Positions 14,424-46,073 of a DNA stretch of 64,000 nt are shown piece by piece; the stretch's first letter is position 1, and the number at the start of each line of letters is the position of its first letter. The notes under the pieces are model-generated. The model saw only the letters and a list, made by a program, of their open reading frames with translations, made no database searches and was not told the origin of the DNA. Position numbers and translations under genes: made by a program. The stretch comes from a bacterium (GTDB lineage: Bacteria; Myxococcota_A; Bradymonadia; UBA7976; UBA1532), in NCBI GenBank assembly GCA_030426085.1, contig JAUHYW010000008.1, forward strand, positions 62,001 to 126,000, in the 5' to 3' direction.

Positions 14424-15185
14424 ATCGCATCGGTCAGCCGGCGGTCCCGCGGTATCCCGCGGCTCATCGGCTGCGCCGACTTTCGCCCGGCATCCCCCGG
14501 GGCCGGCCTTCGGGCTTCGGTGGGGGTGGGCGCGGGTATGATGGCGGTGGTGGATCGCGTGACGGTCGGCCGGCAGTCCCGGGGTATCCCGGGCTCGCCG
14601 GCTGCGCCGACTTCGCCCGGCATCCCCCGGGGCCGGCCTTCGGGCTTCGGTGGGGGTGGGTGTGGGTATGATGGTGGTGGTGGGTATCGCATCGGTCGGC
14701 CGGCGGTCCCGGGGGGTCCCGGGCGCATCGGCTGCGCCGAGTGTCGCCCGGCATCCCCCGGGCCGGCCTCGTGAGCTTCGGTGCGGGGGGGGTCGGATGG
14801 GTGTGATGGCGGTGGTGGATCGCGTGACGGTCGGCCGGCAGCCCCGGGGTATCCCGGGCTCACCGGCTGCGCCGACTTCGCCCGGCATCCCCCGGGGCCG
14901 GCCTTCGGGCTTCGGTGGGGGTGGGCGTGGATGTGATGGCGGTGGTGGGTATCGCATCGGCCGGCCGGCGGTCCCGGGGGGTCCCGGGCTCATCGGCTGC
15001 GCCGAGTGTCGCCCGGCATCCCCCGGGGCCGGCCTTCGGGCTTCGGTGGGGGTGGGTGTGGGTATGATGGTGGTGGTGGGTATCGCATCGGCCGGCCGGC
15101 ATCCCCCGGGGCCGGCCTTCGGGCTTCGGTGGGGGTGGGCGTGGGTATGATGGTGGTGGTGGGTATCGCGTCGGCGCGGCCGGCG
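14424..15185. repeat. Tandem array of about 130-bp units (minisatellite)
   Basis: The landmark GGCCGGCCTT (GGCCGGCCTC in the third copy) recurs at 14,501, 14,631, 14,761, 14,896, 15,027 and 15,110, giving steps of 130, 130, 135, 131 and a shortened 83. Each unit contains CATCCCCCGGGGCCGGCC, a G-rich TCGGTGGGGGTGGG element, a TATGATGG(T/C)GGTGG element and a GTCCCGG-type inverted element. Units differ by point changes and small indels, and the last is internally deleted. Because the unit stays open in several frames, long but meaningless reading frames cross the array. No gene function is assigned. Confidence 0.9.
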
Positions 15186-15514
15186 GGGTCCCGGGGTGTT
15201 ACGGGCTCCTTCGTGGTGCCGAACATGTCGCCCGTACCACCCCGGGCGCCGGCCGCGCTGCGCTTCGTTGGGGGATGGCTCCGGGCGGGGGGCGTGGCGG
15301 CCGTCGACCGGCGCTCGCCCGCCGCGCCTCGCGTATCTGGTGCGGGGCGCATGTGACAGGCGGTGGCTCCGGGGTGGGTGAAGGCGGGCTGACCGGGCGG
15401 GGCGCTCAGAGCGTCGGTCGTTCGCCGGTCGACGTACTGTGCCACGCGTTCTGACTCGGGGGTGGAGCCGGTCGGGGTCGACCATCACGGGCGTCGTCCG
15501 TGAGCGAGCGTCGT
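15186..15514. other. Gene-free spacer between two repeat arrays
   Basis: No gene, RNA or promoter is recognised. A few short inverted elements (for example GGTCCCGGGG near 15,187) look like decayed pieces of the neighbouring 130-bp array. Confidence 0.5.
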
Positions 15515-15705
15515 CCTGTCGGCCCGTCACCTACCCGAACCTCCGTCCTGTCGGCCCGTCACCTACCCGAACCTCCGTCCTGTCGACCCGCCACCCATCC
15601 AGACGGTCGTCCTGTCGACCCGTCACCCATCCAGACGGCTGCCTTGTCCACCCGATGCCCACCCAGACGGCCGCCTTGTCCACCCGATGCCCACCCAGAC
15701 TGTCA
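15515..15705. repeat. 32-bp tandem repeat array
   Basis: Six units begin near 15,515, 15,547, 15,579, 15,611, 15,642 and 15,674. The first two units carry CCTGTCGGCCCGTCACCTAC, the next two a CCCATCCAGACGG variant, and the last two CCTTGTCCACCCGATGCCC. Neighbouring pairs resemble each other most, suggesting stepwise duplication. No unique spacers separate the units, so this is not a CRISPR. No coding role is supported. Confidence 0.85.
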
Positions 15706-17706: not shown

Positions 17707-20318
17707 CGCGTATATATACTGTCGCCCTCGCCCTCACCCTCACCGGCTGCTTCTTCGACACCATGCCCCAGGCCGTCGTCGTGGACGGCGGCGCCGGCGC
17801 CTGCGCTCCCGGGGCCCGCGAATCCGACGCCGCCCTCGGCTGCTACAACCCGCTCGAATCCCCGGCCCTCGTCGCCTCGGCCACCATCGACCCCTATCCG
17901 CCGCCGCCGCTGCCCGACTGGCTCTTCCTCGGCGAGAACTGGTCCATCGACGGCCCGCTGCTCGAGTTCGAAAACGGCTTCGGCGCCAACGTCGAGGTCG
18001 ACCAGTGGATCCCCGGCCTGCCCCTCTTCACCCTCGTCGAAGGCGCCGACACTTGCCGCCCGACCGCCGACTGCCTGCAACCGGTCGGCGTCGTCACCTG
18101 GGAGTGGGTCCCGGTCCCGTGGCTCCTCGAGATCGGCCTCTACCCCTTCTCGCCGACCATGATCTCGACCTGCTCCGTCCTGCCCCGCCCGCTGTGCGAC
18201 GCCGCCGGGGCCCGCCACACCGCCCAGGTCGAGACCGCGCTGCGCGACGCCGGCTACGTGCAGATCGTCGCCAACGGACAAGCCGGCTTCATCCCCGACT
18301 TCAACTCGCCCCGCTTCTGCCGGACCACAGTCTGCCAGCTCCGCCTGGGCCGGGCCGTCGCCCGGGCCTGCGCGGAGGCCAACCGCTGGCAGTTCGACCT
18401 CGACGGGGACGGCGCGGGCAATAGCTGCGACAACTGCATGGTCGCGGCCAACGCCACCCAGAGCGACCGCGACGGCGACGGCCGGGGCGACACCTGCGAC
18501 GTCTGCCCCGACGACCCCCGCCCCGGCGCCGAGCAGGACGTCGACGGCGACGGCCTCCCCGGGTGCGACGACAACTGCCCCATCCGGGCCAACCCGAACC
18601 AGCGGGACACCGACGGCGACGGCGCGGGGGACGCCTGCGACGCCGACGATGACAACGACGGCCTGAGCGACATCGCCGAGGCCGCCCTCGGCACCGACCC
18701 CCGGCGCCGGGACACCGACGGCGACGGGCGGTGGGATCCGCACGACAACTGCCCGACCCGGTCGAACCCCGATCAGGCCGACCCCGACGGCGACGGCCGG
18801 GGATCGGCGTGCGACATCTGCCCCGAAGACGCCGACCCCGAGCAGGAGGACGAGGACGAAGACGGCGTCGGCGACGCCTGCGACAACTGCCGGGACGCGG
18901 CCAACGCCGACCAGCTCGACGCCGACGAGGACGGCATCGGCGATACCTGCTGCGGCGAGGCCGACCCCGACGGCGACGGCTGGGACAACTGCGCGTGGTA
19001 CTCGGCGGCGTACCGCGCCGAGCGGGACATCCCCGATCAAACCGGCGCCCCGGAGGCGGTGCACCCGATGTGGGTCGACCAGGACATCCCCGGCGCGGCG
19101 AGCTGCGCCGGGGGCGTGCGCCGTTGCGTGCCGGCGGGCCCGACGCCGACCTCCACCGTCGCCGGCCTGCGCGCGGGCGTGCTGGACCACATCCGCGCCG
19201 GGCGCCCGAACGTCGAGCAGGCGCCGCCCGGCTCGCCCGACGCCCACCTCGGCCTCTGCTCGGCGCGGGCCGAGCGGATGCCGCCCGATCAGCTCTCGCC
19301 GGCGTGGTGGGCCGCCTGCCTCGAGGATCCATCGGCCCCGGCCGTCCCCGATCCGGCGGTGGCCGCCCCGGTGGAGGTGGAGTTCGGCGGCAACCCCCGC
19401 ATCGCGGCCCAGTTCGGGCTGATCGGGCAGCGGGTGATCTGGTGGCTGGGCGGCTACGCGGCGCGGGGTGATTGCGATTATGATCAAGCCTACCGGGTCT
19501 TGATGCCCGACGGTCACCTGCGGCACGGCGAGTGGGACATCCAGTGCCTGGGCACCGTGCGCCGGGACGACCAGGGGCGCCTGCGGGGCCAGCCGGGGCA
19601 GCTCATCGAGGTGAAGTGGTGGCGGACCAGCGTCACCACCTGGCCCGACGACCGGGCGGCGTCGTTCATCGACCAGATCGAGCGGCACTACGCGGCCTTC
19701 CTCAACGCGCAGGTCGAGGACCCCACGGTGCGCCTCATCTGGCTCTTCGGCTGGAACCCGCCGCTCACCGCCGAGCACATCCTGAGCAAGAGCCCGGCCT
19801 ATGACTTCGGGCGGATCATCGGGCGCGACGCGGGCGCGCTGATCTACCCCGAGATCCCGTTCGCCCTGCCGATCGAAGCCCTGCTCGACCGCTTCAGCGT
19901 CGACCCCTGGCGGGCGGGCCCCTACTACTGGACCACCTTCGTCCCGTCCGACTTCGAGCCGATCCCCGGCCTGTTCGACGAGGCCCCGTGCTTCCCCTGC
20001 TCAGAGCACGACGACATGTGCGAGCGGGGCGGCCTCGTCGGGGCGTGGCGCGACGTGAGCTTGCACTGGCCCGAGTGCGAGGTGGTCGGGCGGGCGATCT
20101 ACTGCGACTTCATCGACGCCGAGGTCACCGTGGCCCGCTACGGCTCGGTCTACGTCGATCAGCCGGCGCTGCTGCGCTGGCTGGGCATCTACAAGCACGC
20201 CTGCATCCACGGCCGGGGCGCCGGTTGCAACCCCTGGCTCAGTCGGCTGTATGATCGGGTCAAGTGCCGCGGGCTGCACCCCAGCGCGGCCCGGCTCGTC
20301 GAGGAGGACCCCCAATGA
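17703..20318 (+). CDS. TSP3-repeat lipoprotein with restriction-endonuclease-like C-terminal domain (candidate polymorphic toxin)
   Basis: 871 residues. Signal [16 protein letters not shown] has a lipobox with Cys16. Residues about 230-417 hold calcium-binding TSP3-type repeats ([23 protein letters not shown] and others), which usually act as rigid stalks. Beyond about residue 420 comes a new domain: [13 protein letters not shown] with Asp612, then QLIEVKWW with Glu636 and Lys638, then a helix with Gln ([12 protein letters not shown]) and a strand VRLIWLFGW. The D...ExK order, helix and W-rich strand match the pattern of PD-(D/E)xK nuclease-fold toxins (known class); catalysis is inferred. 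The stop overlaps the ATG of the first of four tandem small genes, the arrangement expected of toxin and immunity. The last codons ([10 protein letters not shown]) copy the spacer sequence between those genes. Alternative: a structural Ca-binding surface protein. Confidence 0.8.
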
Positions 20319-20785
20319 TGATGAGCGTCGCCATGATCTTCCTCTTCGGCTTGTTCCAGGACGACTCGTCCGACTTCCTCGACAAGTACTTCATCCGGGT
20401 GACCGACCCCGCCGACTTGCCCGACTTCAAGCGCACCCGGCCGATCGAGGCGCTGCCCGGTTGGCGAGCCGGCCTGTTCGGCGAGTCGAAGTTCGGCTAC
20501 CGCCCGGGCAAGTGCACTGCACCGGGGCGGGACGTCGTCGCCCGGGTCAAAGCCGAGCTCGGCGAGCCGATCACGATGGAGTTGCTGGGAGACGAGGTTC
20601 TGAAGGGCTACTTCTGGCGCTGGCGCGAGAATCCGGAGAAGGGCTTCCTCATCCTGGTCCCGCCCGGGGAGCGGGGCGTCATCCTCAAGGGCTGGATGTT
20701 TCGGGACACCGCAGGAACCGCCCGCCTGGGCCGGCCGGTCGAGGACCGGGTCTACCGCTGGTTCGACCGGCTCGTCGGGCGCTGA
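20315..20785 (+). CDS. Tandem small protein, copy 1 (candidate immunity protein)
   Basis: 156 residues. The ATG overlaps the stop of the toxin-like gene (ATGA) and is the first of three consecutive ATG codons, with GAGGAGG 7 bp upstream. Sequence in order: [47 protein letters not shown] with one conserved Cys, [24 protein letters not shown], and [14 protein letters not shown]. No signal peptide is evident, so it is probably cytoplasmic. It is the most divergent of the four at residues 89-95 (LLGDEVLKG versus RLGGPQTA) and has one extra residue. Family not recognised; the immunity role is inferred from position and tandem amplification. Confidence 0.85.
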
Positions 20786-20815
20786 GCCGGCCCGGCTCGT
20801 CGAGGAGGACCCCCA

Positions 20816-21283
20816 ATGATGATGAGCGTCGCCATGATCTTCCTCTTCGGCTTGTTCCAGGACGACTCGCCCGAGTTCATCGACAAGTACTTCATCCGGG
20901 TGACCGATCCGGCCGAGCTGCCCGACTTCAAGCGCACCCGACCGATCGAGGCTCGGCCGGGCTGGCGAGCCGGGCTCTACGGGGAAGGGAAGTTCGGCTA
21001 CCGGCCGGGCAAGTGCACCGCCCCCGGGCGGGACGTCGTCGCCCGGGTCAAGGCCGAGCTGGGCGAGCCGATCACCATGGAGCGCCTCGGCGGGCCGCAG
21101 ACCGCCTGGTTCTGGCGCTGGCGGGAGAACCCGGAGAAGGGCTTCCTCATCCTGGTCCCGCCAGGGGAGCGGGGGGTCGTCCTCAAGAGTTGGTCGTTTC
21201 GGGACACCGCGGGAATCGGCCGCCTGGGCCGACCGGTCGAGGACCGGGTCTACCGCTGGTTCGACCGCCTCGTCGGGCGCTGA
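20816..21283 (+). CDS. Tandem small protein, copy 2 (candidate immunity protein)
   Basis: 155 residues, starting [20 protein letters not shown]. It differs from copy 1 at scattered positions, mostly in the 20-50 region (PEFID for SDFLD, GLYGEGKF for GLFGESKF) and near residue 130 (LKSWSFRDTAGIGRLG). The ribosome site is in the repeated 27-bp spacer. The single Cys and the acidic/aromatic C-terminus [11 protein letters not shown] are unchanged, so the fold should be intact. Differences concentrated in a few patches would fit selection for a partner surface, but the sample is too small to say. Confidence 0.85.
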   Translation: MMMSVAMIFLFGLFQDDSPEFIDKYFIRVTDPAELPDFKRTRPIEARPGWRAGLYGEGKFGYRPGKCTAPGRDVVARVKAELGEPITMERLGGPQTAWFWRWRENPEKGFLILVPPGERGVVLKSWSFRDTAGIGRLGRPVEDRVYRWFDRLVGR

Positions 21284-21313
21284 GCCGGCCCGGCCCGTCG
21301 AGGAGGACCCCCG

Positions 21314-21781
21314 ATGATGGTCAGCATCGCGATGATCGTCCTCTTCGGCTTGTTCCAGGACGACTCGCCCGAGTTCATCGACAAGTACTTCATCCGGGTG
21401 ACCGATCCAGCCGAGCTGCCCGACTTCAAGCGCACCGAGCCGATCCTTGCTCGCCCGGGCTGGCGAGGTGGGCTCTACGGCGAGTCGAAGTTCGGCTACC
21501 GCCCAGGCAAGTGCACCGCCCCCGGGCGGGACGTCGTCGCCCGGGTCAAAGCCGAGCTGGGCGAGCCGATCACCATGGAGCGACTCGGCGGGCCGCAGAC
21601 CGCCTGGTTCTGGCGCTGGCGCGAGAACCCGGAGAAGGGCTTCCTCATCCGGGTCACCCCCGGGGAGCGGGGCGTCATCCTCAAGGGCTGGTCGTTCTTG
21701 GACACCGCGGGAACTGCCCGCCTGGGCCGGCCAGTCGAGGACCGGGTCTACCGCTGGTTCGACCGGCTCGTCGGGCGCTGA
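21314..21781 (+). CDS. Tandem small protein, copy 3 (candidate immunity protein)
   Basis: 155 residues, starting [20 protein letters not shown]; the second and third start-proximal codons differ from the other copies (GTC AGC ATC). It carries TEPILARPGWRGGLYG in place of TRPIEARPGWRAGLYG, and [22 protein letters not shown] near the C-terminus. The reading frame, Cys and ribosome site are intact. Same inferred role as the other copies. Confidence 0.85.
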   Translation: MMVSIAMIVLFGLFQDDSPEFIDKYFIRVTDPAELPDFKRTEPILARPGWRGGLYGESKFGYRPGKCTAPGRDVVARVKAELGEPITMERLGGPQTAWFWRWRENPEKGFLIRVTPGERGVILKGWSFLDTAGTARLGRPVEDRVYRWFDRLVGR

Positions 21782-21811
21782 GCCGGCCCGGCGCGTAGAG
21801 GAGGACCCTCA

Positions 21812-22279
21812 ATGATGATGAGCGTCGCCATGATCTTCCTCTTCGGCTTGTTCCAGGACGACTCGCCCGAGTTCATCGACAAGTACTTCATCCGGGTGAC
21901 CGATCCGGCCGAGCTGCCCGACTTCAAGCGCACCCAGCCGATCGAGGCGCTGCCCGGTTGGCGGGGTGGGCTCTACGGCGAGTCGAAGTTCGGCTATCGG
22001 CCGGGCAAGTGCACCGCCCCCGGGCAGGACGTCGTCGCCCGGGTCAAGGCCGAGCTGGGCGAGCCGATCACCATGGAGCGGCTCGGCGGGGCGCAGACCG
22101 CCTGGTTCTGGCGCTGGCGCGAGAACCCGGAGAAGGGCTTCCTCATCCGGGTCACGCCCGAGGAGCGGGGGGTCGTCCTCAAAGGATGGGCGTTCGACGA
22201 CAAGGTGAGAAACGGCCGCCTGCCGGTGCCGGTCGAGGACCGGATCTACCGCTGGTTCGACCGCCTCGTCGGGCGCTGA
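21812..22279 (+). CDS. Tandem small protein, copy 4 (candidate immunity protein)
   Basis: 155 residues. The N-terminal half equals copy 2 almost exactly, while the C-terminal third is the most changed: VTPEERGVVLKGWAFDDKVRNGRLPVPVEDRIYRWF. This mosaic pattern, conserved front and variable patch around residues 125-142, suggests recombination between units. The upstream spacer has GCGCGTAGAGGAGGACCCTC, so the ribosome site is retained. Last intact gene of the operon. Confidence 0.85.
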   Translation: MMMSVAMIFLFGLFQDDSPEFIDKYFIRVTDPAELPDFKRTQPIEALPGWRGGLYGESKFGYRPGKCTAPGQDVVARVKAELGEPITMERLGGAQTAWFWRWRENPEKGFLIRVTPEERGVVLKGWAFDDKVRNGRLPVPVEDRIYRWFDRLVGR

Positions 22280-34271: not shown

Positions 34272-35687
34272 ATGCTCGATCCGCACGCCGCGACGTTGCC
34301 GACGACGCCCCCCGGTGCGCCGCGGGCCGACACCGGCCCGCTCGGGCGCCGCTTCGCCCGCTTCGTCCTGCTCGACCGCCTGGGGCACGGGGCGATGGGC
34401 GTCGTCTACTCGGCCTACGACCCCGAGCTGGACCGCCGCGTCGCGCTCAAGCTGCTGGCCGATCCGCTCTCGCCCACCGTCGATCTGCTCACCGAGGCCC
34501 GGGCGCTGGCCCGCTTGAACCACCCCAACGTGGTGCAGGTGCACGACGTGGGCAGCACCGACGGCAAGCACTGGCTGGCGATGGCCTACCTCGACGGCCC
34601 GACGCTCACCGAGTGGCTGGCCGACGGGCCGGCGCAGGGCGCCGTGATCGCGTGCCACGTCGCGCTGGGCGAGGGGCTCGGCGCGGCCCACGCGGCGGGG
34701 GTCGTGCACCGGGACTTCAAGCCGGACAACGTCGTGTTCGGGGCCGACGGGCGGCCGCGCATCATCGACTTCGGCCTCGCCTCGTGGCACGGCGAGGGCG
34801 AGGCGGGCGGCGTCTGGGGCACGCCGGGCTACATCGCGCCGGAGGTGTTGCAGGGGCAGCCGGCGAGCCCGGCGGCCGACCAGTTCGCCTTCTGCGCGAC
34901 GCTGTACCGGGCGCTCTTCGGGCAGGCGCCGTTCGCCGGGCGAGGGCTGCTGGCGGTGGCCCGCTCGATGGCCGAGGGCCGCCTGGAGCCGCCCCCGCCG
35001 GGGCACGGGGTGCCGCCGTGGATCGTCGCCGCGATCCGCCGGGGGCTGGCGGCCGATCCCGCCGACCGCTGGCCGTCGATGCGGTCGCTGGTGGCCGAGC
35101 TGCGCCGCTGCCCGGCCTCGGACGCCGGGCTCTTCGCCGCCGAGCGGGCCCGGCTGACCCGCCGGATCTTCGCCGCGATGGTGCTGCTGATCGTGCTCGC
35201 CGCCCTGATCGTCGGCGACCGCCGCCCCGATCCCGACGAGGCGCTGCTGTGGGGGCTGGCGTGGCCCGCGCTGCTCGGCGTGCTCTTGTGGCAGAGCCGG
35301 AGCTGGATCCGGGAGAGCCCGCTCAATCGCCATCTGGCGCTGCTGCTGGCGATCGCGGCCGGCAACGGGCTGGTGTTCCGCCTGCTGGCCCGGCTCGGCG
35401 GCCTGCCGCTGGACGACGTGATGGTCTTCGAGCTGGCCGCCTGCGCCGCGCTGTCGGGGCTGAGCGTGCCGGTCATGGGCCGGTGGATGGGCGCGGTGGC
35501 CGCGGTCGAGCTGGCCGGGGCGCTGCTCGCCGCCGCCCGGCCGACGCTGGCCCCGGCGGTGTTCATGGTCACCATGGCCGCGCTCGTCGGCCTCGGGTGG
35601 TACTTCATGGTGCGGCCGGCCCGGGCCGCCGATCGGGCGCCGGCCGGGGTCAGTCGTAGCGCAGCACGTCGAGCGGGGTGGCGCTGA
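34272..35687 (+). CDS. Ser/Thr protein kinase with polytopic membrane domain
   Basis: 471 residues. Kinase domain about 30-285: GHGAMGVVY glycine loop, ALKLL Lys, HRDFKPDN catalytic loop, IIDFGLAS, and GTPGYIAPE. It ends without PASTA or PEGA. After residue 295 there are five or six hydrophobic segments ([83 protein letters not shown]), an arrangement found in some myxobacterial kinases. GGGAGG lies before the ATG. The final 38 bases overlap the end of the convergent giant gene at 35,650, so the two transcripts are complementary at their 3' ends. Substrates unknown. Confidence 0.92.
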
Positions 35688-38600
35688 CGGTCAGCTCGAC
35701 GTCCGATCCGATCGAGAACTGAGGCTGCTCGGCGCCGAGGTAGTGGGTGCCCGGCCCGAGCACGATCTCGAGGTCGCTGTCGGGGCTGCCGCAGCGGCGC
35801 ACGTCGGCCGGGTCGCAGCGGTCGGCGATGAAGAAGCGCCCCTCGACCCCATCGGCCCAGGCCACCCGCACCCGCGCGGGGTAGGCCAGCCGCAGCGCGA
35901 CGAAGCTCTCGGACGAGCCGGAGCAGAAGCGGGGGTAGTCATCGCCCGCGCCCACGACCTGCACCGCCACCGGCTGGGGGTCGGGGCCGAGGTCGACCAC
36001 CGGCAGCGGGGTCACCTCGTCGACGCAGACCGGCGGGGCGAAGCAGTAGGTCATCTCGAAGCCGCAGGCGGCGACGTCGGCGACGCAGCCGGGCAGCGCG
36101 GCGAGCAGATCGTCGCCCGCCAGGCCCGCCTGCCCCGCGCAGTACCCCTCGCAAGCGGCCCGGTCGGCGAAGAGCCCGCAGCCGTCCACCGCGTCGCAGG
36201 CGTCGACGCAGGCCGGGGGCACGCCGTCGTCGAGGTCGAGGCAGCGGTCGATATGCGCGCACTCGACCCGCTCGGCGCAGGCGCGGCGGGCGGCGGCCCC
36301 CGGGGTCAGGGCGCACTCGACCTCGCAGTCGAATCGGCCGACGGTCGGATCGCACGCGACGCGCCGGTCGCAATACGCCACGCACGCGGCCGGGGCCGCC
36401 TCGGCGCCCACGCAGGCGCTCGCCGCGGCGCAGCCCTCGCCCCGGCGGCGGGCGTGCCCGACGCAGACGAGGGCCTCGACGTCGCACGCCGCGGCGCAGT
36501 CGCCGGCCGGCACCCCGCACGCCTCGAGATCGGCGCACAGGCCGTCGCAGTCCTCGACCGGCGCGGCCTCGGCCACGCAGTCGCGCAGATCGTCGCACCG
36601 CTCGCTGGCGGCGAGCAGGCACGCCTCGCCGTCGGCGACGCGCAGCAGGTCGTCGGCGGGCAGCGTGCCGGCGGCGCAGCGGGCCGCGCACTGCGCCAGC
36701 TCGTCCTGCGAGCGCGGCGCGCAGTCGGTCGTCGCCAGGCACCACGCCCGGCACACCGGCGGCACGCCCTCGTCCCAGTCGCGGGGCGAGGTGCGCACCT
36801 CGAGCAGGTAGGGGCCGCCCCGGTTCGGGGGCGCGATGGCGGCGACGACGCTGTAGGTGCCCGCGGCCAGCGTGGTCTCGATGCGGGGGCAGAAGTCGAT
36901 GCCCCCGTCGACGCTGCTCGCGATGCGCCGGTCGAGGTCGTCGAGCACGCCCCGATACAGGTACAGCGCCGCGTCGGCGTCGCATCCGGTGCCGTCCCGG
37001 TCGCTGAGCTGCAGGACGGTGCGCCCGCCGGTGCTCTCGAAGATGAAGTGATCCCGATCGGAGAACGGCCCGCCCTCGCTGATCGTGCCCGTGGCCCGCA
37101 GGATGGCGCCGGGGTCGCGCCACTCGGCGGTCGCGTCGCGGTCGATGTTGTCGTTGGCCTCGGTGATCTGCTGCCGGGTGCAGCCGGCCGAGCAGCCGTC
37201 CCGCTCGGCGATGTTGCCGTCGTCGCACTCTTCGGCGCCCTCGCGCACGCCGTCCCCGCAGATCGCGTCGTCGACCGGCTCGATGCTGCCCTCGAGCTGG
37301 ATGGTGATCTCGCCGCTGAAGCGGTCGTCGAGCCAGTCGAGCGACATGACGTGCAGCCCCGGCGGCAGCACCTCGTCGAACTCGATCTCGCCGCCCTGGG
37401 CCGGGCAGTTCACCCAGCCCCCCCGCTGCGCGCCCTCGTAGCGGGCGAAGAGGCCCATCGCCAGCCGGCGGTCCTCGAATCCGGCGACGTAGAGCGGGCA
37501 GTTGTCGCCCCCGTACCAGAACGCCGAGGGCACCGGGTGACCGAAGTCGAAGCGCACCCGGCTGGTCTGGCGCAGGTCGAGCAGGAAGAAGCCCCGCTCG
37601 GCGGGGAAGAGGTGGATCGCCGCCTTCAGGTAGGGCAGCAGCGGCTCGGCGATGTCGTCCCCGCTCAGCGTGGGGTGGGTCTCGAGCTGGCAGGTCGGCG
37701 AGCAGCCGTCGAAGACCCCCACCCCGCCGTCATCGCACTGCTCGGCGCCCTCGACGACGCCGTCGCCGCACACCGTCTCGAGCCGGCAGTCGGCGTCGCA
37801 GCCGTCGCCCGGCTCCAGGTTGCCGTCGTCGCAGTCCTCCTCGACCGGCATGAGCACGCCGTCGCCGCAGCTCGGCACCCAGCCCCGGGCCTGGGCCTCG
37901 GCCCACAGCAGGTCGAAGGTCTCCGCCTCGACGAACTCGACCGCCGCCAGCGAGGCCAGATCGGGGTAGGGCCGCCGCTGCACGATGAAGCCCGAGACCC
38001 GCCGGTCGAGCCCGGCGTCCTGGAGCTGCTCGTCGGGCAGCAGCGCCACCCGGCGGATGGCGTAGGCCTCGTAGCTGCCCTCGGCGTAGCCGTATACGTC
38101 CGGCGGCGGCTCGACCGCGCAGTTCGGCAGGGTCCGCCACCGCCCCTCGATACACGGCTCGACCCGCTCGCCCCGGCCGTCGGGGCCGCAGGCGAAGACC
38201 CGCTCGTCCTCGTCGAGGCACACGTCGGGGTCGTCGCAGCCGCCGAAGGCCCCCCAGATGCCGTCGACGCAGGTCCGCGACCGCAGGCCCCGGCCGTTGA
38301 GGCCGCAGGCCACCGCCTCGACCGCGCCCCGCACGCACTCGCTCGCATCACGGCAGGGGCCGGGCGCGAACGCGCCCTCGACGCAGACGTCGGTGGCCAT
38401 CGACCAGCCGTCGACCCCGCAGGCCGGGGCCGGGCGATACAGGCCGGCGCAGGTCGCCGCCTCGGGGTCGAGCGGGCACAGCCGGGCGCCGCCGGAGTCG
38501 CCGTCGACGCACGCGTCGGGGTCGGCGCAGGCGCCGACCGGCATCCACTGGCCGTCGACGCACATCGCCGGGGCCAGCCCCCGCCCGTTCAAACCGCACG

Positions 38601-41600
38601 GGGCCTCGCCCTCGACGCCGTCCTGGCACATGTCGGGGTCGTCGCACGGGCTGAAGGCGTCCCAGATCCCGCCGAAGCAGGCCCGTCGGCGCAGGCCGCG
38701 CGCGTTGAAGCCGCAGGCCTCCTCTCCGACGGCGCCGGGGGCGCACTCGGCCGGGCCGCAGGGGCCGTCGGCGACGAACGCCCCGTCCACGCAGCGCAGG
38801 GGCTGCGCGCCGTCGGGGCAGGCCTCGCCGGTGACGCTGCCCTCGACGCAGGTGATCCGGACCGTGAGCACGTAGGCCGGCACGGCCGCGTCGTCGTAGC
38901 CCGCCACCCGCAGGACGTAGGCCCCGGGGTCGAGCACCACGTCGAGGCGCGAGCAGAAGTCGACCCCGCCGTCGTCGTCGAACGCGATCGGCTCGACGCC
39001 GCCCAGCGGGTACAGGGTCAGCGTCGTATCGTCGGGGCAGCCGCCGGCGCCGTCCGAGGTGAAGGCCACCACCTGCGAGGGCCCGACCAGATCGAAGCGC
39101 CAGTCGGAGAAGCCGTTCGCCGGGATGGGGTCGCCGGCGAAGTCGCCGCCGTCGTCCACCCGGGGGGCGCCCGGGCCGATGGCCACATCAAGGACGTGGG
39201 CCGGCACCGCCCCGCCGTCGAAGCCGCCGACCCGCACGATGTACGACCCGGCGCCCAGCTCGACTTCGATCAGGGAGCACCCGTCGAGGCCGCCGTCGTC
39301 GTCGAAGGCCACTTCGATCCGGGCGCCGTCGAGGCCGACCCGGTCGATCGTGAGCACGGTGTCCCCGGGGCACAGGCCCTGCGCGTCGCCGGTCTCCAGG
39401 CGCACCGCGCGGTCGCCGTCCAGGTCCAGGCGGTACTCGTCCGCCGCGCCCGCGGGGATGAAGCGCCCGTCGTAGCGGTCGCTGCGGCTGATGTCGAAGC
39501 GGAAGCCGACGCACAGGGCGTCCGAGGTCCACTGCCCGGCCCGGCAGACCGACGCCTGCACCCGGTCGTCGCCGCACGGGCGATCCTCGGCGGCGCCGTC
39601 GACGCACGCGTCGGGGTCGTCGCACGCCGACCACGGCCCGAAGGCCCCGCCGACGCACTCACGGGTCCGCTCGCCGCGGCCGTTGAGCCCGCACGGCTCG
39701 ACCTCGGTGTCGCCGGCAGCGCACTCGCCGGGGTCCTCGCCCGGCTCGCCCCGGGGGGTGGCGTCGGCCACCACGAAGTCGGCGGCGTTGTCGTCGGTGT
39801 CGACGTGATCGACCCGGGTGAGCCCCTGCCCGTCGCCCGGATCGGGGGCCGGCCGGCCCTCTCCGGCGAAGTCGGCCCCCGCGTCGCCATAGCCCAGCGC
39901 GTCGAGCACCGCCGCGCCCCGCCGAAGCTGGATCCCGTCGGGCCCGTTCTGCAGATCGGCGCCGTCGACGAGCAGATCGGCCAGCGCCCGCAGCCCCGCC
40001 GAGGCCCCCGGCTCGGCGACCACGTAGTAGCCGTCGGCCCCGATGACGCCGTCCAGCGGCAGCTCGACGTAGTCCGCGCCGCCGTTGCCGTTCACCCCGA
40101 CGAGCGCCAGCCCGTCGAGCGCCGCGCCGGGCGGGCCCCACAGCTCGATGAAGGTCTCGCTGCCGTCGGACCCCGCCTGGTCGTAGAGCACCTCGTTGAT
40201 GACGATGACCGGCGGCGGCCCCACGCAGTCCCCGGCCTCGCAGGCGGTCCCCAGCGGGCACGGCGCGGCGGGGCCCCACTCGACGCACGGGTCGTCGTCC
40301 ACATCGGCGCACAGCTCGGGCCCGTCGTCCCCGCAGCGGCGGGCGCCCTCGGCGCAGGCGTCGAAGCAGGCCCCGTCGCAGTCGCTCCAGTCGAGCCATT
40401 CGCCCGCGTCGCACAGCCGCCGCTGGGCGCCGTCCCCCCGGTCGCCGCACGCCCGCTGCTCGACCGCGCCGTCGACGCACGCGTCGGGGTCGACGCAGTC
40501 CTCGGGCTGGGTGAAGTCGCCCCGCACGCACGTCCGCGAGCGGAAGCCCCGGCCGTTGAGCCCGCACGGCTCCCGCTCGACGGCGCCGTCGACGCAGCGA
40601 TCGGGGTCGTCGCACGGCCCGTAGGCCCCCCATTGCCCGTCGGCGCAGGTCCGGCGCTCGGTCCCCCGAGCGTTGAGCCCGCAGGCCCGCTCTTCGACCG
40701 CCCCGTCGAGGCAGACGTCGGCCCCGTCACACGGGCTGTAGGGGCTCCACTGCCCCTCGACGCAGGTTCGCCCTTCGATCCCCGCGCCATTCAGCCCGCA
40801 GGCCCGCTGCTCGGCGGCGCCGTCGACGCACACGTCGACGTCGTCGCACGGCGGCGGATCGGCCCACTGCCCCTCGACGCAGTCCCGGAGCTGCACCCCG
40901 CGCCCGTTGAGCCCGCAGGCCAGCTCCTCGTCGCTGCCGTCGCGGCAGATGTCGGGGTCGTCGCACGGGCCCGGCGGGCCCCACATGCCGTCCACGCACG
41001 CCCGGAACGAGGACCCCCGGCCGTTGAGCCCGCAGGCGACCTCGTCCCGCCCGCCCGCCTCGCAGACGCCGGGCAGCACGCATTCGCCGAGCGCACCCCA
41101 CCGCCCCTCGACGCAGGTCCGGGTCGACAGCCCGATGTCGTTCGGGCCGCAGGGCCCCGACTCCTCGGCGCCGTCGACGCACACGTCGGGGTCGTCGCAC
41201 GGGCCGGCCTCGATCCAAGCGTCGTCCACGCAGACCTCGGGCCGGGCGCCCCGGTCGTTGAGGCCGCACGGCTGCTGGCGGCGGTCACCGTCGGCGCAGA
41301 GCCCCGGCGGGGCCATATCGGGCACGGGCGGCGCCATGTCGGGGTCGGGCGGGGCCATGTCGGGGTCGGGCGGGGCCATATCGGGCTCGGGCGGCGCCAT
41401 GTCGGGGTCGAGCGGCGCCATGTCGGGCTCGGGCGGCGCCATGTCCCCTTCGATCGGGCCCTGGTCGGGGTCGGGTGGGCCCTGGTCCGCTTCCGGCGGG
41501 CCCATGTCGGGCTCGGGCGGGCCCATGTCGGGGTCGGGCGGGCCCATGTCGGGGTCGAGCGGCGCCATGTCCCCCTCGGGCGGGGTCATGTCACCCTCCG

Positions 41601-41757
41601 GCGCCAGGTCCGGGGTCGGCCCCCGATCGGTCGCCATGTCACCCGCGGGAGGCGCCTGATCGGGCCCGGCGTCCTCCATGGGATCGTCGCCTTCGTCCGG
41701 CGCGGGCACACATCCCACAAAGCTCACGAGGCACAGCGTCAGCCAGATTCGTCGCAT
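35650..41757 (-). CDS. Giant mosaic Cys-rich lipoprotein (2,035 residues)
   Basis: Start set at the second of two ATGs (41,757), 5 bp after GGAGG. Signal [15 protein letters not shown] (lipobox VGC). Approximate layout: 20-160 Asp/Pro/Met repeats (PDPDMGPP type, 18-bp DNA units); 160-480 some ten 35-40-residue repeats with CGLNGRG and CDDPD; 515-660 a lamin-tail-like domain starting [13 protein letters not shown]; 755-860 and 867-970 two PPC-like beta domains ([12 protein letters not shown]); 970-1,216 more CGLNGRG repeats; 1,294, 1,326 and 1,499 DUF4215/Myxo-disulfide units ([16 protein letters not shown]); 1,549-1,659 a third PPC-like domain; 1,666-1,910 a region of about 8-Cys repeats. All are families of extracellular structural or adhesive proteins. 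No catalytic site was seen. Probably a surface adhesin or matrix protein. Its end overlaps the kinase gene by 38 bp. Confidence 0.9.
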
Positions 41758-41934
41758 CATCCCCTCCGATCCGCTCGCCGCCGCTATAGCGGATCGGGCG
41801 GCGCAGGTGAAAGCGGGAACGCACCCCGAGGTCCCCGAGAGCGAGGCCGGGCGGCGGCCGGGGCGGGGTCCGCTCGATTGCCCCGCTGACGGAATCGTGC
41901 GATCCTGCCGCCCTTCCATCGGGGATCGCTCACC

Positions 41935-42495
41935 GTGCACCGCCTGCTCTTCGCCACGCTGTTGCCGCTCGCGCTCGCCGGCTGCGGATCCGAGCGCGAG
42001 TTCAGCGGCGTCTGGCGCCAGATGCCCTGCGACGAGGGGCCGGCCTCGCCGGATTGCAGCGACTTCGTCTACGAGCTGCACATCGGGCGCTACGGCGATC
42101 AGCTCACCGGCATCGTGGTGCGCTACGTCTACGATCGCAGCGGCCTCGACAGCTTCCAGCGCCCCAAGGAGTGCGGCTGCTTCTTCATCGAGGGCGGCGT
42201 GGCCGAAGGCGACGAGATGCGGTTCCGGCTGCACGACGCGACCACCCCCCGCTACCCCCAGCCGGATACCCTCGACAGCGACCTGGGCTGCCAGACCGGG
42301 CAGTTCTCGACGACCTGCGCCGGGCGCCGCTTCAGGCTCGAAGGCGACGACGAGCTGATGGCGGGGGAGACGGTCTGCGGGTGTCCTGCGGGTCAGGCCG
42401 ACTGCGAGGAGCCGCCCGGGCTACCGGTCGCGTTCGAGCGGGTGGTCGGCCAGCCGCGCACCGAGTGCTACGAGCGGCGCGGGATCGAGCAATGA
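41935..42495 (+). CDS. Cys-containing lipoprotein
   Basis: 186 residues starting at a GTG; signal [16 protein letters not shown] with a good lipobox (LAGC). The ribosome site is weak, but no other start keeps the signal. The mature part begins [11 protein letters not shown], a lipocalin-like opening, continues with beta-strand-like segments ([21 protein letters not shown]) and has about ten Cys ([17 protein letters not shown]). No family assigned. The stop overlaps the next gene's ATG (ATGA), so both products are probably made together and act in the envelope. Confidence 0.82.
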
Positions 42496-43928
42496 GCGTC
42501 GCCCGGGCCCTGCTGGCGGTGATCGCGCTGGGCGCGCTCGCCCCGGCCGCCGCCCCCGCCGCGCCCGCCCGGGGCGACGCGGTGCGGCTCAACGAGGGCC
42601 TGCCCCCCGGCTTCCGCCGACCCCAGGTGGTGGTCTATCCCCTGCTCGATCAGCGGGCGCTGGCGATCGAGGGCGAGCCCGACGGTCAGCGGGCGGCGCC
42701 CGAGGCGTGGTCCGCCTTCCTCGACGAGCTGCGGGCGGCGCGCAATCTGGCGATCGAGATGCCGGGCATGACGGTGCGCGCGATCTCCGACGATCTGGGC
42801 TACCGCCGGGCGCTGGAGTTGGCCCTCGCCGCCGCCGAGCGGGGCTATCGCGACTACCGCGACGTGCGCCTCGACGCGGCCGCCGATACGCTGCGCGAGG
42901 CGGTGGACACGTTCGTCAAGCTGGAGCATCACGTCGTCGCCCCCCGCGAGGTGGCCCGGGCGGCGCTGACCGCGGGGCTGGCGCTGCTGGAGAGCGGGCG
43001 GCCGGTGCAGGCCGAGCGGGCGTTCCGCCGGGCGCTGCTGCTCGACCCGAGCCTGCGCCTGCGCCCGGGCTACGATCTGCCCCGAGCGATCGAGGCGCTC
43101 GACGCGGCCCGCCGGGGCCTGCTGACCGACGGGCCGCCGGCGCCGGACGACTTCTCGGCCCGGACCCCGATGTCCCCCCATCAGGCGGGGGCCTACGTGC
43201 TGCGGGCCCGGGCCCTGCCCGGTCGCTTGGAGGTCGTCATCCGCTCGGCGGGCGGGGTGAGCGTCGAGTCGCAGCCGTTCGGGGCCGATCCGGCCGACGC
43301 CGGCAGCCGCCTGGCGAGCCGGGTCCGGGCCTGCCTGCCCTTCGGGCGCATGCCCCGGCCCGAGGGGCACCGCTCGAAGCTGTTCCTCGAGGGCGGCTTC
43401 GACGCCTACGCCTTCGCCGAGAACCCGGTGGAGGCCTTCCCCAACGTCGGGGTCGCGGTGCATGTGAGCTGGGTCGCCGCCCCCCACCTCAGCCTCGACT
43501 TCCACGGCTCGATCTCGAACGGCGAGCGCGACCCCCAAGAGCACCTGCGCAGGGACATCGCCACCGCCCGCACGGCCTTCGGGACGGGCTACGCCTGGAG
43601 CGACGAGCGCTTCCGGGTGCACGGGCTGCTCGCCGTCGAGGTGGCGACGATGAGCGCGGTGGTCCTCACCACCAACCCGGCGTGCAAGTTCTTCGGCGAG
43701 GACGACGAGGTGCCCGACGTGCTCTGCGACCGCGATCAGGACATCGACACCTTCGACCGGGTGTGGCTGGTGGGCCCGGCGGTCTCGGTGGGCGGCAGCA
43801 TGCGCCTGGTCGACCAGATCTTCCTCAGCTTGCGGGTGACGGCGGCGACCTATCTGGTCGAGAGCGACGACAACGGCTTCGGGGTGCCCATCGGCGGATC
43901 GGTGGCCCTCGGTTATCGGTTGTTCTGA
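42492..43928 (+). CDS. Secreted TPR-type protein with C-terminal barrel-like region
   Basis: 478 residues. Signal peptide [20 protein letters not shown]. Residues about 95-215 are helical and TPR-like (AAERGYRDYRDVRLDAAADTLREAV, ALLESGRPVQAERAFRRALLLDP), a frequent N-terminal module of Myxococcota outer-membrane proteins. After a linker (about 215-290) the C-terminal ~190 residues alternate like barrel strands (FPNVGVAVHVSWVAAPHLSLDFHG) and end in YRLF. One Cys pair (CKFFGEDDEVPDVLC) lies in a loop. Coupled by ATGA overlap to the lipoprotein upstream. Role unknown. Confidence 0.82.
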   Translation: MSVARALLAVIALGALAPAAAPAAPARGDAVRLNEGLPPGFRRPQVVVYPLLDQRALAIEGEPDGQRAAPEAWSAFLDELRAARNLAIEMPGMTVRAISDDLGYRRALELALAAAERGYRDYRDVRLDAAADTLREAVDTFVKLEHHVVAPREVARAALTAGLALLESGRPVQAERAFRRALLLDPSLRLRPGYDLPRAIEALDAARRGLLTDGPPAPDDFSARTPMSPHQAGAYVLRARALPGRLEVVIRSAGGVSVESQPFGADPADAGSRLASRVRACLPFGRMPRPEGHRSKLFLEGGFDAYAFAENPVEAFPNVGVAVHVSWVAAPHLSLDFHGSISNGERDPQEHLRRDIATARTAFGTGYAWSDERFRVHGLLAVEVATMSAVVLTTNPACKFFGEDDEVPDVLCDRDQDIDTFDRVWLVGPAVSVGGSMRLVDQIFLSLRVTAATYLVESDDNGFGVPIGGSVALGYRLF

Positions 43929-44270: not shown

Positions 44271-44915
44271 CTACCGCCCGCCGGCCACCACCGGGTTCTC
44301 GAGCGTCATCAGCGTCTCGCCCGCCGGGCCCACCAGCCGGACCTCGACCGTATCGCCCGCCCGCAGCGGCCCGACGCCCGCCGGGGTGCCCAGCGAGATC
44401 ACGTCCCCCGGCTCGAGGGTCATGCAGGCGCTGATCGCGGCGACGAACTCGGCCGGCGAGCGGACCAGATCGGACAGCGGCCCGTCCTGTCGCAGCGCGC
44501 CGCCGACCCGGCACTGCACCCGGCATCGAGCCCAGTCGAGGGTCGGCAGGCGGCCGGTGGCCATCGGGCAGAAGGTGTCGAAGCCCTTGGCCCGGGTGAA
44601 CCGCCCCCCGTCGGCCCGCTGGAGGTCGCGGGCGGTGACGTCGTTGAGCAGCGTCCACCCGGCGATGGCCGCCTCGGCAGTGTCCGGGTCGACGTGGCTC
44701 AGCCGGGCGCCGACGATCAAGGCCACCTCGCCCTCGTGCTGCACCTCGGCGCTCGCCGCCGGCAGCCGGATGGCCTCACCGGGCCCGATGAGCGCGGTCG
44801 TCGCCTTGAGGAAGTACAGCGGCACCTCGGGCACGGCGTTGCCCAGCTCGGCGGCGTGCTTGCGGAAGGTCCGGGCGAGGCAGACGATCTTGCCCGGGCG
44901 GTCGGGTCGGCTCAT
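44271..44915 (-). CDS. Fumarylacetoacetate hydrolase (FAH) family protein
   Basis: 214 residues, length of the short one-domain FAH enzymes. Seen in order: KIVCLARTFRKHAAELG, PLYFLKATTALIGPGEAI, the metal ligands in EVQHEGEVALIVG, LLNDVTARDLQ with its Asp, RAKGFDTFCPMA, and GDVISLGTPAGVGPL. These residues bind Mg2+/Mn2+ and the acylpyruvate in characterised members. Likely activities are acylpyruvate hydrolysis or oxaloacetate decarboxylation/tautomerisation; which one cannot be decided. Cytoplasmic. GAGGG lies 4 bp before the ATG. A strong hairpin at 44,945-44,971 separates it from the gene upstream, so it probably has its own promoter. Confidence 0.93.
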   Translation of the reverse strand: MSRPDRPGKIVCLARTFRKHAAELGNAVPEVPLYFLKATTALIGPGEAIRLPAASAEVQHEGEVALIVGARLSHVDPDTAEAAIAGWTLLNDVTARDLQRADGGRFTRAKGFDTFCPMATGRLPTLDWARCRVQCRVGGALRQDGPLSDLVRSPAEFVAAISACMTLEPGDVISLGTPAGVGPLRAGDTVEVRLVGPAGETLMTLENPVVAGGR

Positions 44916-44993: not shown

Positions 44994-46073
44994 CTACTCG
45001 TCCTTCTTCTCGGGCACGACCCCCTCGGGCGGGATCTTGCACACGCACTCGGTGACCGAGATCTGCTGGCTGACCGACTCCTCGAAATGGGTCAGGCAGT
45101 CGGCCTTCTGCTCGAACTTCACCTCGCGCCGCTTCTTGGCGTTGTAGAGGAACCAGTACTCGCAGTTGATCGGGGTCAGCTCGACCGACTTGAGGAACTT
45201 GTACTCCCCGGTGGTCGGATCCTTGGTCCACAGGTGCTGGGCGACGTTGAACTCGAACGGCTCGTAGCCATCCTTCTCGAGCCGGATCGAGTAGGTCTGG
45301 GCGATGTCGAGGTTCATGATGTTCATCGGGGTCATGCCGACCTTCTGGGTCGGCGCGGCCCCTTCGGCCCCCGGCGGCGGCGCCTCGGGGGTCTTCTCGG
45401 CGGTGGGCTCGGGCGCCTTCTCGGGGGCGGCCTTGCCGTCGGGCGCGGCCTTGCCGTCGGGCGCGGCCTTGCCGTCGGGCGCGGCCTTGCCGTCGGGCGC
45501 GGCCTTGCCGTCGGGCGCGGCCTTGCCATCGGGCGCCGCGGCCGGGTCATCGGCCGGCGCGGTGGCCGCGGCGACCTCGGCGATCAGCTTCTCGCCGTCC
45601 TTGATCACCACCGCCTGGGGCGGCTCGCTCTCGATGCGCAGCACGCCGTACTTCTTCTGCTTGGCGAGCTGCTCGGCGAGGTGGGCCTCTTCGAGGGCCC
45701 GCCGCTCCTCGGCCTTGGCCGCGAGCGTCTCGGGGGCCGAGACCCGGATGAGCTGCCACACGCCGACGCCGGTGGCGGCGACGATGAGCACCAGCAGCAC
45801 GAGGTTGAGCGCGTTGGACCCGCCGCCGACGGCGTGGGTGTCGTCCACGTCGTCGATGTCGACCTCGCGGTCGGCGGCCCGGGTCAGCAGCCGGGTGATG
45901 CTGCCGTGATCCTCCTCGACCGGCCAGTAGCGGTAGTCGTGCCCGGGTGGGGCGTGCGGCGCCGGGTCGGCGTCGGGCACGACCGGCGCGTCCTCCCGCT
46001 CGGCGGCGTCGTCCGCCGCCTTGTCGAGCCGGACCGACTCCGCCTCTTCCGCCTTCTTCTTCTTCTTGGCCAT
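44994..46073 (-). CDS. Membrane protein with PEGA-like domain split by a hexapeptide-repeat insertion
   Basis: 359 residues. The N-terminus is Lys-rich and then acidic (MAKKKKKAEEAESVRLDK), cytoplasmic. One helix, NALNLVLLVLIVAATGVGVW (about 87-106), is followed by a charged helix and then YGVLRIESEPPQAVVIKDGEKL, the first strands of a PEGA domain. About 75 residues of Ala/Pro/Asp/Lys sequence with six DGKAAP repeats intervene before VGMTPMNIMNLDIAQTYSIRLEKDGYEPFEF, which is the second half of PEGA. The C-terminal ~85 residues carry Cys (CEYW, DCLTH, ECVCK) and end in Lys/Asp/Glu. PEGA domains are surface-binding modules. Function unknown; the membrane protein at 46,340-47,158 is divergently transcribed from it. 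Confidence 0.85.
   Translation of the reverse strand: MAKKKKKAEEAESVRLDKAADDAAEREDAPVVPDADPAPHAPPGHDYRYWPVEEDHGSITRLLTRAADREVDIDDVDDTHAVGGGSNALNLVLLVLIVAATGVGVWQLIRVSAPETLAAKAEERRALEEAHLAEQLAKQKKYGVLRIESEPPQAVVIKDGEKLIAEVAAATAPADDPAAAPDGKAAPDGKAAPDGKAAPDGKAAPDGKAAPDGKAAPEKAPEPTAEKTPEAPPPGAEGAAPTQKVGMTPMNIMNLDIAQTYSIRLEKDGYEPFEFNVAQHLWTKDPTTGEYKFLKSVELTPINCEYWFLYNAKKRREVKFEQKADCLTHFEESVSQQISVTECVCKIPPEGVVPEKKDE
45427..45534 (-). repeat. Six 18-bp units inside the PEGA-like gene
   Basis: Units start at 45,427, 45,445, 45,463, 45,481, 45,499 and 45,517; the first five are identical (GCGGCCTTGCCGTCGGGC) and the last differs by one base. They code for DGKAAP repeats in frame. Such identity implies very recent expansion. 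Confidence 0.95.

Follow-up and report, generated by a model that had tools for sequence, protein, structure and literature searches.

Has a tandem repeat grown inside a folded protein domain, and did its growth split that domain? The question is raised by a gene at 44994-46073 of the window (the whole 64,000-nucleotide stretch of bacterial DNA analyzed here, which belongs to a genome assembled into 10.1 Mb and 178 contigs), where the initial annotation had described a PEGA domain interrupted by a fresh hexapeptide-repeat insertion. The features of the gene and its protein are collected in Table 1. The single transmembrane helix of the protein is a prediction read from the sequence, and the cytoplasmic and periplasmic sides would follow from the lysine-rich N-terminus.

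Table 1. Features of the repeat-bearing gene and its product (nucleotide positions are those of the window; residues are those of the 359-aa protein)
Feature	Residues	Positions	Strand	Basis or remark
359-aa protein ORF		44994-46073	-	no internal stop
N-terminal part, predicted without order
Predicted transmembrane helix	~87-111
Helix	114-139
Interrupted PEGA-like domain	142-~277
PEGA-like first half (strands 1 and 2, start of hairpin)	142-164	45582-45650	-	motif and orthologue alignment; modelled strands 142-147, 155-158
A/P-rich insert in first hairpin, 80 residues, probably disordered	165-244	45342-45581	-	model 167-243 with pLDDT <50
Six PDGKAA units, 18 bp x 6		45426-45533	-	four identical; one synonymous change in each of the other two
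PEGA-like second half	245-277	45243-45341	-	PF08308 match 243-276; modelled strands 250-256, 261-266, 273-277
Cysteine-containing C-terminal part

A protein search of 142 genomes gave matches in 43 at E<=0.001, many of which covered the low-complexity loop only; the clear orthologues were loci L001 to L013, the window's own included. Twelve stretches from relatives, several of which end at a contig edge, were compared for gene neighbors. Six of the 12 hold a counterpart of the adjoining gene at 44271-44915, which we take to be a relative of fumarylacetoacetate hydrolase, and five hold a counterpart of the gene at ~42480-43928, presumably an outer-membrane protein. The neighbors common to several relatives support the orthology, and the existence of orthologues, several with the same neighbors, shows that the minus-strand ORF is a genuine gene.

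To begin with the DNA of the repeat, units 2 to 5 of the array are identical when read as PDGKAA, while unit 1 has GAT for GAC and unit 6 has GCC for GCG, both synonymous. When the register was moved by six bases, the same letters yielded a unit with two differences beside five identical ones, and this is the form in which six DGKAAP repeats (five identical 18-bp units and one nearly identical) had been reported, correctly. Tandem Repeats Finder (TRF) placed the array at 45421-45536, with 6.4 copies of 18 bp, a 97% match and a score of 218. The 18-mer occurred six times in the window with up to two mismatches; dinucleotide shuffles contained 0.08 copies on average, and 0 of 100 reached six. 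The nucleotide differences summed over all pairs of the six units came to 10, compared to 36.6 expected (P=0.0002), in 100,000 draws with independent codon choice at local codon usage; the usage was taken from eight window genes, the array gene among them, which makes the test conservative. Codon bias does not account for the likeness of the units, and because they are far more alike than local codon usage predicts, the six-unit array came from recent DNA duplication. The youth of the array at the DNA level, as first proposed, is thus supported, and the length of 108 bp is a count from a 178-contig assembly in which it may be miscounted.

The 18-mer was also considered as a dispersed element and rejected, as six of its seven matches in the genome (at most one mismatch) lie within this array; the six frames around the sole outside match, on contig C109, showed no DGKAAP repeat. 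In 400 kb of the same genome, picked by hand with many contig starts rather than at random, six arrays had a period that is a multiple of 3, at least four copies and at least 90% match (reading frame unchecked), and two of the six had units of at least 18 bp. By this hand-picked count, short arrays with a frame-keeping period are not rare in this genome. Elsewhere in the window, four similar ORFs of 155-173 aa stand in tandem at 20264-22279 (+), where a 498-bp unit is present in 4.2 copies with 89% match; the sequence MM(M/V)S(V/I)AMI(F/V)LFGLFQDDS occurs near the start of every one of the four. A 21-bp array of 13.7 copies at 41306-41592 encodes PPDPDM/PPEPDM-type repeats in a long Cys-rich ORF (35650-42234, -), and further tandem arrays were found at 14424-15184 (83/130/265-bp) and 15512-15700 (32-bp).

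The domain around the array was compared with Pfam PEGA (PF08308). The window protein passed the gathering cut-off (26.1 bits compared to 20.8), with a match confined to residues 243-276 in the second half of the domain (positions 20-52 of the 71 in the profile), so that most of the profile was not covered in one piece. The short-loop orthologue L005 scored 17.7 bits, under the cut-off, and likewise matched just positions 20-51; PF08308 matches at E<=1 were obtained in only 7 of the 13 orthologues. Since an orthologue with a short loop also matches only this part of the profile, the domain is a divergent relative of PEGA and not merely a PEGA domain cut by an insert. A search of the protein against NCBIfam gave weak matches only, far under the cut-off. 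The first half was recognized by motif and by orthologue alignment in the sequence YGVLRIESEPPQAVVIKDGE, and the strands ahead of the insert, before residue 165, read YGVLRIESEPPQAVVIKDGEKL. The insert is composed overall of A, P, K, D, G and E, with 27 Ala and 16 Pro among its 80 residues. Its length is close to the separation of about 75 residues described earlier for the two halves, and its position at a beta-hairpin of the PEGA-like domain agrees with the earlier description as well.

Structure predictions were compared between the window protein and a natural short-loop orthologue. The orthologue was well predicted as a beta domain, with ten-residue pLDDT means of 81-89 over residues 161-250, and its hairpin strands at 184-186 and 193-195 sit close together in the model. 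The model of the window protein was weak (mean pLDDT 51.6, pTM 0.25); in it, pLDDT stays below 50 over residues 167-243, between the matching strands at 164-167 and 242-245, although low confidence is expected in repeats whatever their true state. The predictions suggest that the loop is probably disordered and forms the end of an extended hairpin. Compared with the transthyretin-like sandwich domains of carboxypeptidases, the orthologue gave a best VIA Z of 7.5 over residues 163-252, a middling value. Foldseek with the orthologue's domain returned no match at E<=0.001, and a family-profile sequence search for relatives of solved structure returned none at E<=1.

The age of the loop was then read from its length in relatives. 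A profile search at E<=1e-8 matched 31 of 57 genomes of the class, and 30 homologous first domains were examined from the 31 matching places (G047, which had no locus, was left out, and two second-domain rows were excluded from the 30 loop lengths). All 17 distant homologues have a first hairpin of 20-28 residues, its right-hand boundary being set in most of them by the profile alignment, and 10 of the 13 close homologues have 21-41 residues, with only 21 in G008 and G006. The remaining three carry long A/P-rich loops of 91 residues (the window), 90 (the same-genus G001) and 67 (the same-family G011). Altogether, 27 of the 30 hairpins span 20-41 residues, and all 30 exceed the usual 8. The G011 loop is without DGKAAP and uses other codons, and the 41-residue loop of G002 at the same hairpin contains four cysteines.

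For comparison, the other PEGA domains of the window's own genome had a hairpin of 8 residues in 16 of 22 parsed, a survey of the 30 best of 61 matches at E<=0.01 that favors canonical domains; 8 of the 30 were unparsed and stand outside the median, and the values of 3 and 5 in it are probably early TP-like matches. Because all 30 homologous domains are extended, compared to mostly 8 residues in other PEGA domains of this genome, the extended hairpin goes back to the ancestor of the family, whereas the repeat array is a late elaboration. Four weaker matches in the own genome (L081, L083, L084 and L085) have a first hairpin of ~20 residues by eye, with a Pfam match that starts at about position 18-20, so this family is not alone in having an extended hairpin. 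An array comparable to that of the window was seen at none of the 13 PEGA hairpins (of 61 matches) read by eye in this genome. At L093 (contig C123, 43000-47000), DQKAG-type repeats follow the PEGA match, outside the domain. Loci L011 to L013, of the same order, have a long insert in a later hairpin instead, between a YKFKL/YRFKL strand and YR..EF, and that of L011 contains poly-Ala. A similar-looking Cys-rich segment was seen in the PEGA hairpin of L008 (G002) and in the C-terminal part of L003 (G011), and so occupies two different loops in these orthologues.

Only one further genome of the genus came up, and its orthologue is identical to the window protein at 226 of 278 aligned residues outside the loop (81%); 44 of the 226 codons for identical residues differ between the two. 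The G001 loop consists of eight PADG-type units and has no PDGKAA array. What is new is the hexapeptide array, which the only other species of this genus found here lacks in that form. The earlier reading, a tandem repeat growing inside a folded domain, stands for the array and falls for the loop, which is old and varies freely among the relatives.

The explanation that we favor overall, at a probability of about 85%, is slippage that expanded a tolerant, disordered loop within an ancestrally extended hairpin. The protein would belong to the envelope, cross the membrane once and be conserved across this lineage of Myxococcota; its PEGA-like beta domain is probably periplasmic, and the first hairpin of that domain, extended from the start, would accept insertions at its tip. 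That tip would have turned into a long, disordered A/P-rich loop in this genus and in at least one further genus of the family; in the window genome, an 18-bp seed (PDGKAA) would recently have been raised to six copies by replication slippage or unequal recombination. The loop may serve as a hydrophilic, flexible spacer without disturbing the fold.

Whether the A/P-rich loop arose once or twice is a separate matter. Two origins, one in the window's genus and one in G011, both through expansion of a permissive hairpin, are compatible with the explanation above and have somewhat less than an even chance. The best tree needs two label changes, one change is enough in just 28% of 200 bootstrap trees, and the G011 insert has different codons and no DGKAAP units; however, the relevant forks of the tree are unsupported, which leaves room for a single origin.

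A functional loop is a less probable alternative and, in our estimate, unlikely. The loop would then act, for instance, as a spacer of tuned length or as a linear motif that binds the cell wall or docks a partner, with composition and total length selected while the repeats drift. The two members of the genus have loops of 91 and 90 residues despite different repeats, with A+P fractions of 0.47 and 0.46, and the accessible part of a study of Borg elements reports homologues whose amino-acid tandem repeats (aaTRs) are alike in composition and different in DNA (PMC9879509). These loops come from two genomes only, however, while G011 has 67 residues and 27 of the 30 domains have 20-41. That length itself is selected, with ~90 A/P/D/G/K-rich residues kept in two species of the genus while the repeat units were fully replaced, we consider quite doubtful. 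If it were so, selection would act on length and composition, not on sequence, inside a folded envelope domain, and a loop length conserved under repeat turnover would make this a natural setting in which to test for selection on disordered spacers. Apart from that possible conservation, the case is tidy but ordinary repeat growth. It offers a comparative case of where repeats grow in a folded domain, with loops of ~20, 40, 67 and 90 residues, one of which carries a young array.

The original proposal, in which a fresh insertion broke up a PEGA domain of compact, canonical form, is very improbable. The near-identity of the units in DNA, beyond codon bias, and the mostly 8-residue hairpins of the own genome (16 of 22 parsed, from the 30 best matches) would fit it, but every one of the 30 homologous hairpins was already extended, and two genomes besides the window's own, G001 and G011, carry long A/P-rich loops. 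The loops at the same place in G011 (67 residues, no DGKAAP) and G002 (41 residues, four cysteines) are the kind of observation that the initial annotation itself had named as refuting a fresh insertion.

Literature matches for PEGA in Myxococcota, for periplasmic proline-rich tandem repeats, and for slipped-strand mispairing with disordered loops held nothing on this case in the accessible text of the matches listed, one of these sets being the best 10 of 1,217 matches. PEGA is described in the accessible part of its 2004 report as a 70-residue domain (PMC2447325). The window protein resembles PF08308 in exceeding the cut-off for its second half and in the P-x-x-A-x-V ... TP ... GY signature; it differs in a first hairpin of 20-91 residues in this family, compared to mostly 8, and in its Cys-containing C-terminal part. 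The closest parallel for the repeat is found in Borg elements, for which the accessible part of PMC9879509 describes in-frame repeats that create disorder, with PEGA proteins among the aaTR carriers. The window array has the same character, being in-frame and near-perfect in nucleotides with a period that is a multiple of 3 (18 bp x 6, two synonymous differences), probably disordered, and carried by a membrane or envelope protein. It is not carried by a Borg element of Methanoperedens: it lies in a bacterial genome of 10.1 Mb in 178 contigs with Myxococcota relatives, not in an archaeal extrachromosomal element. As far as the accessible part of that study goes (PMC9879509), forty Borg proteins have more than one repeat region, and these regions often lie at the termini or between domains, whereas the array of the window lies inside the hairpin of a domain.
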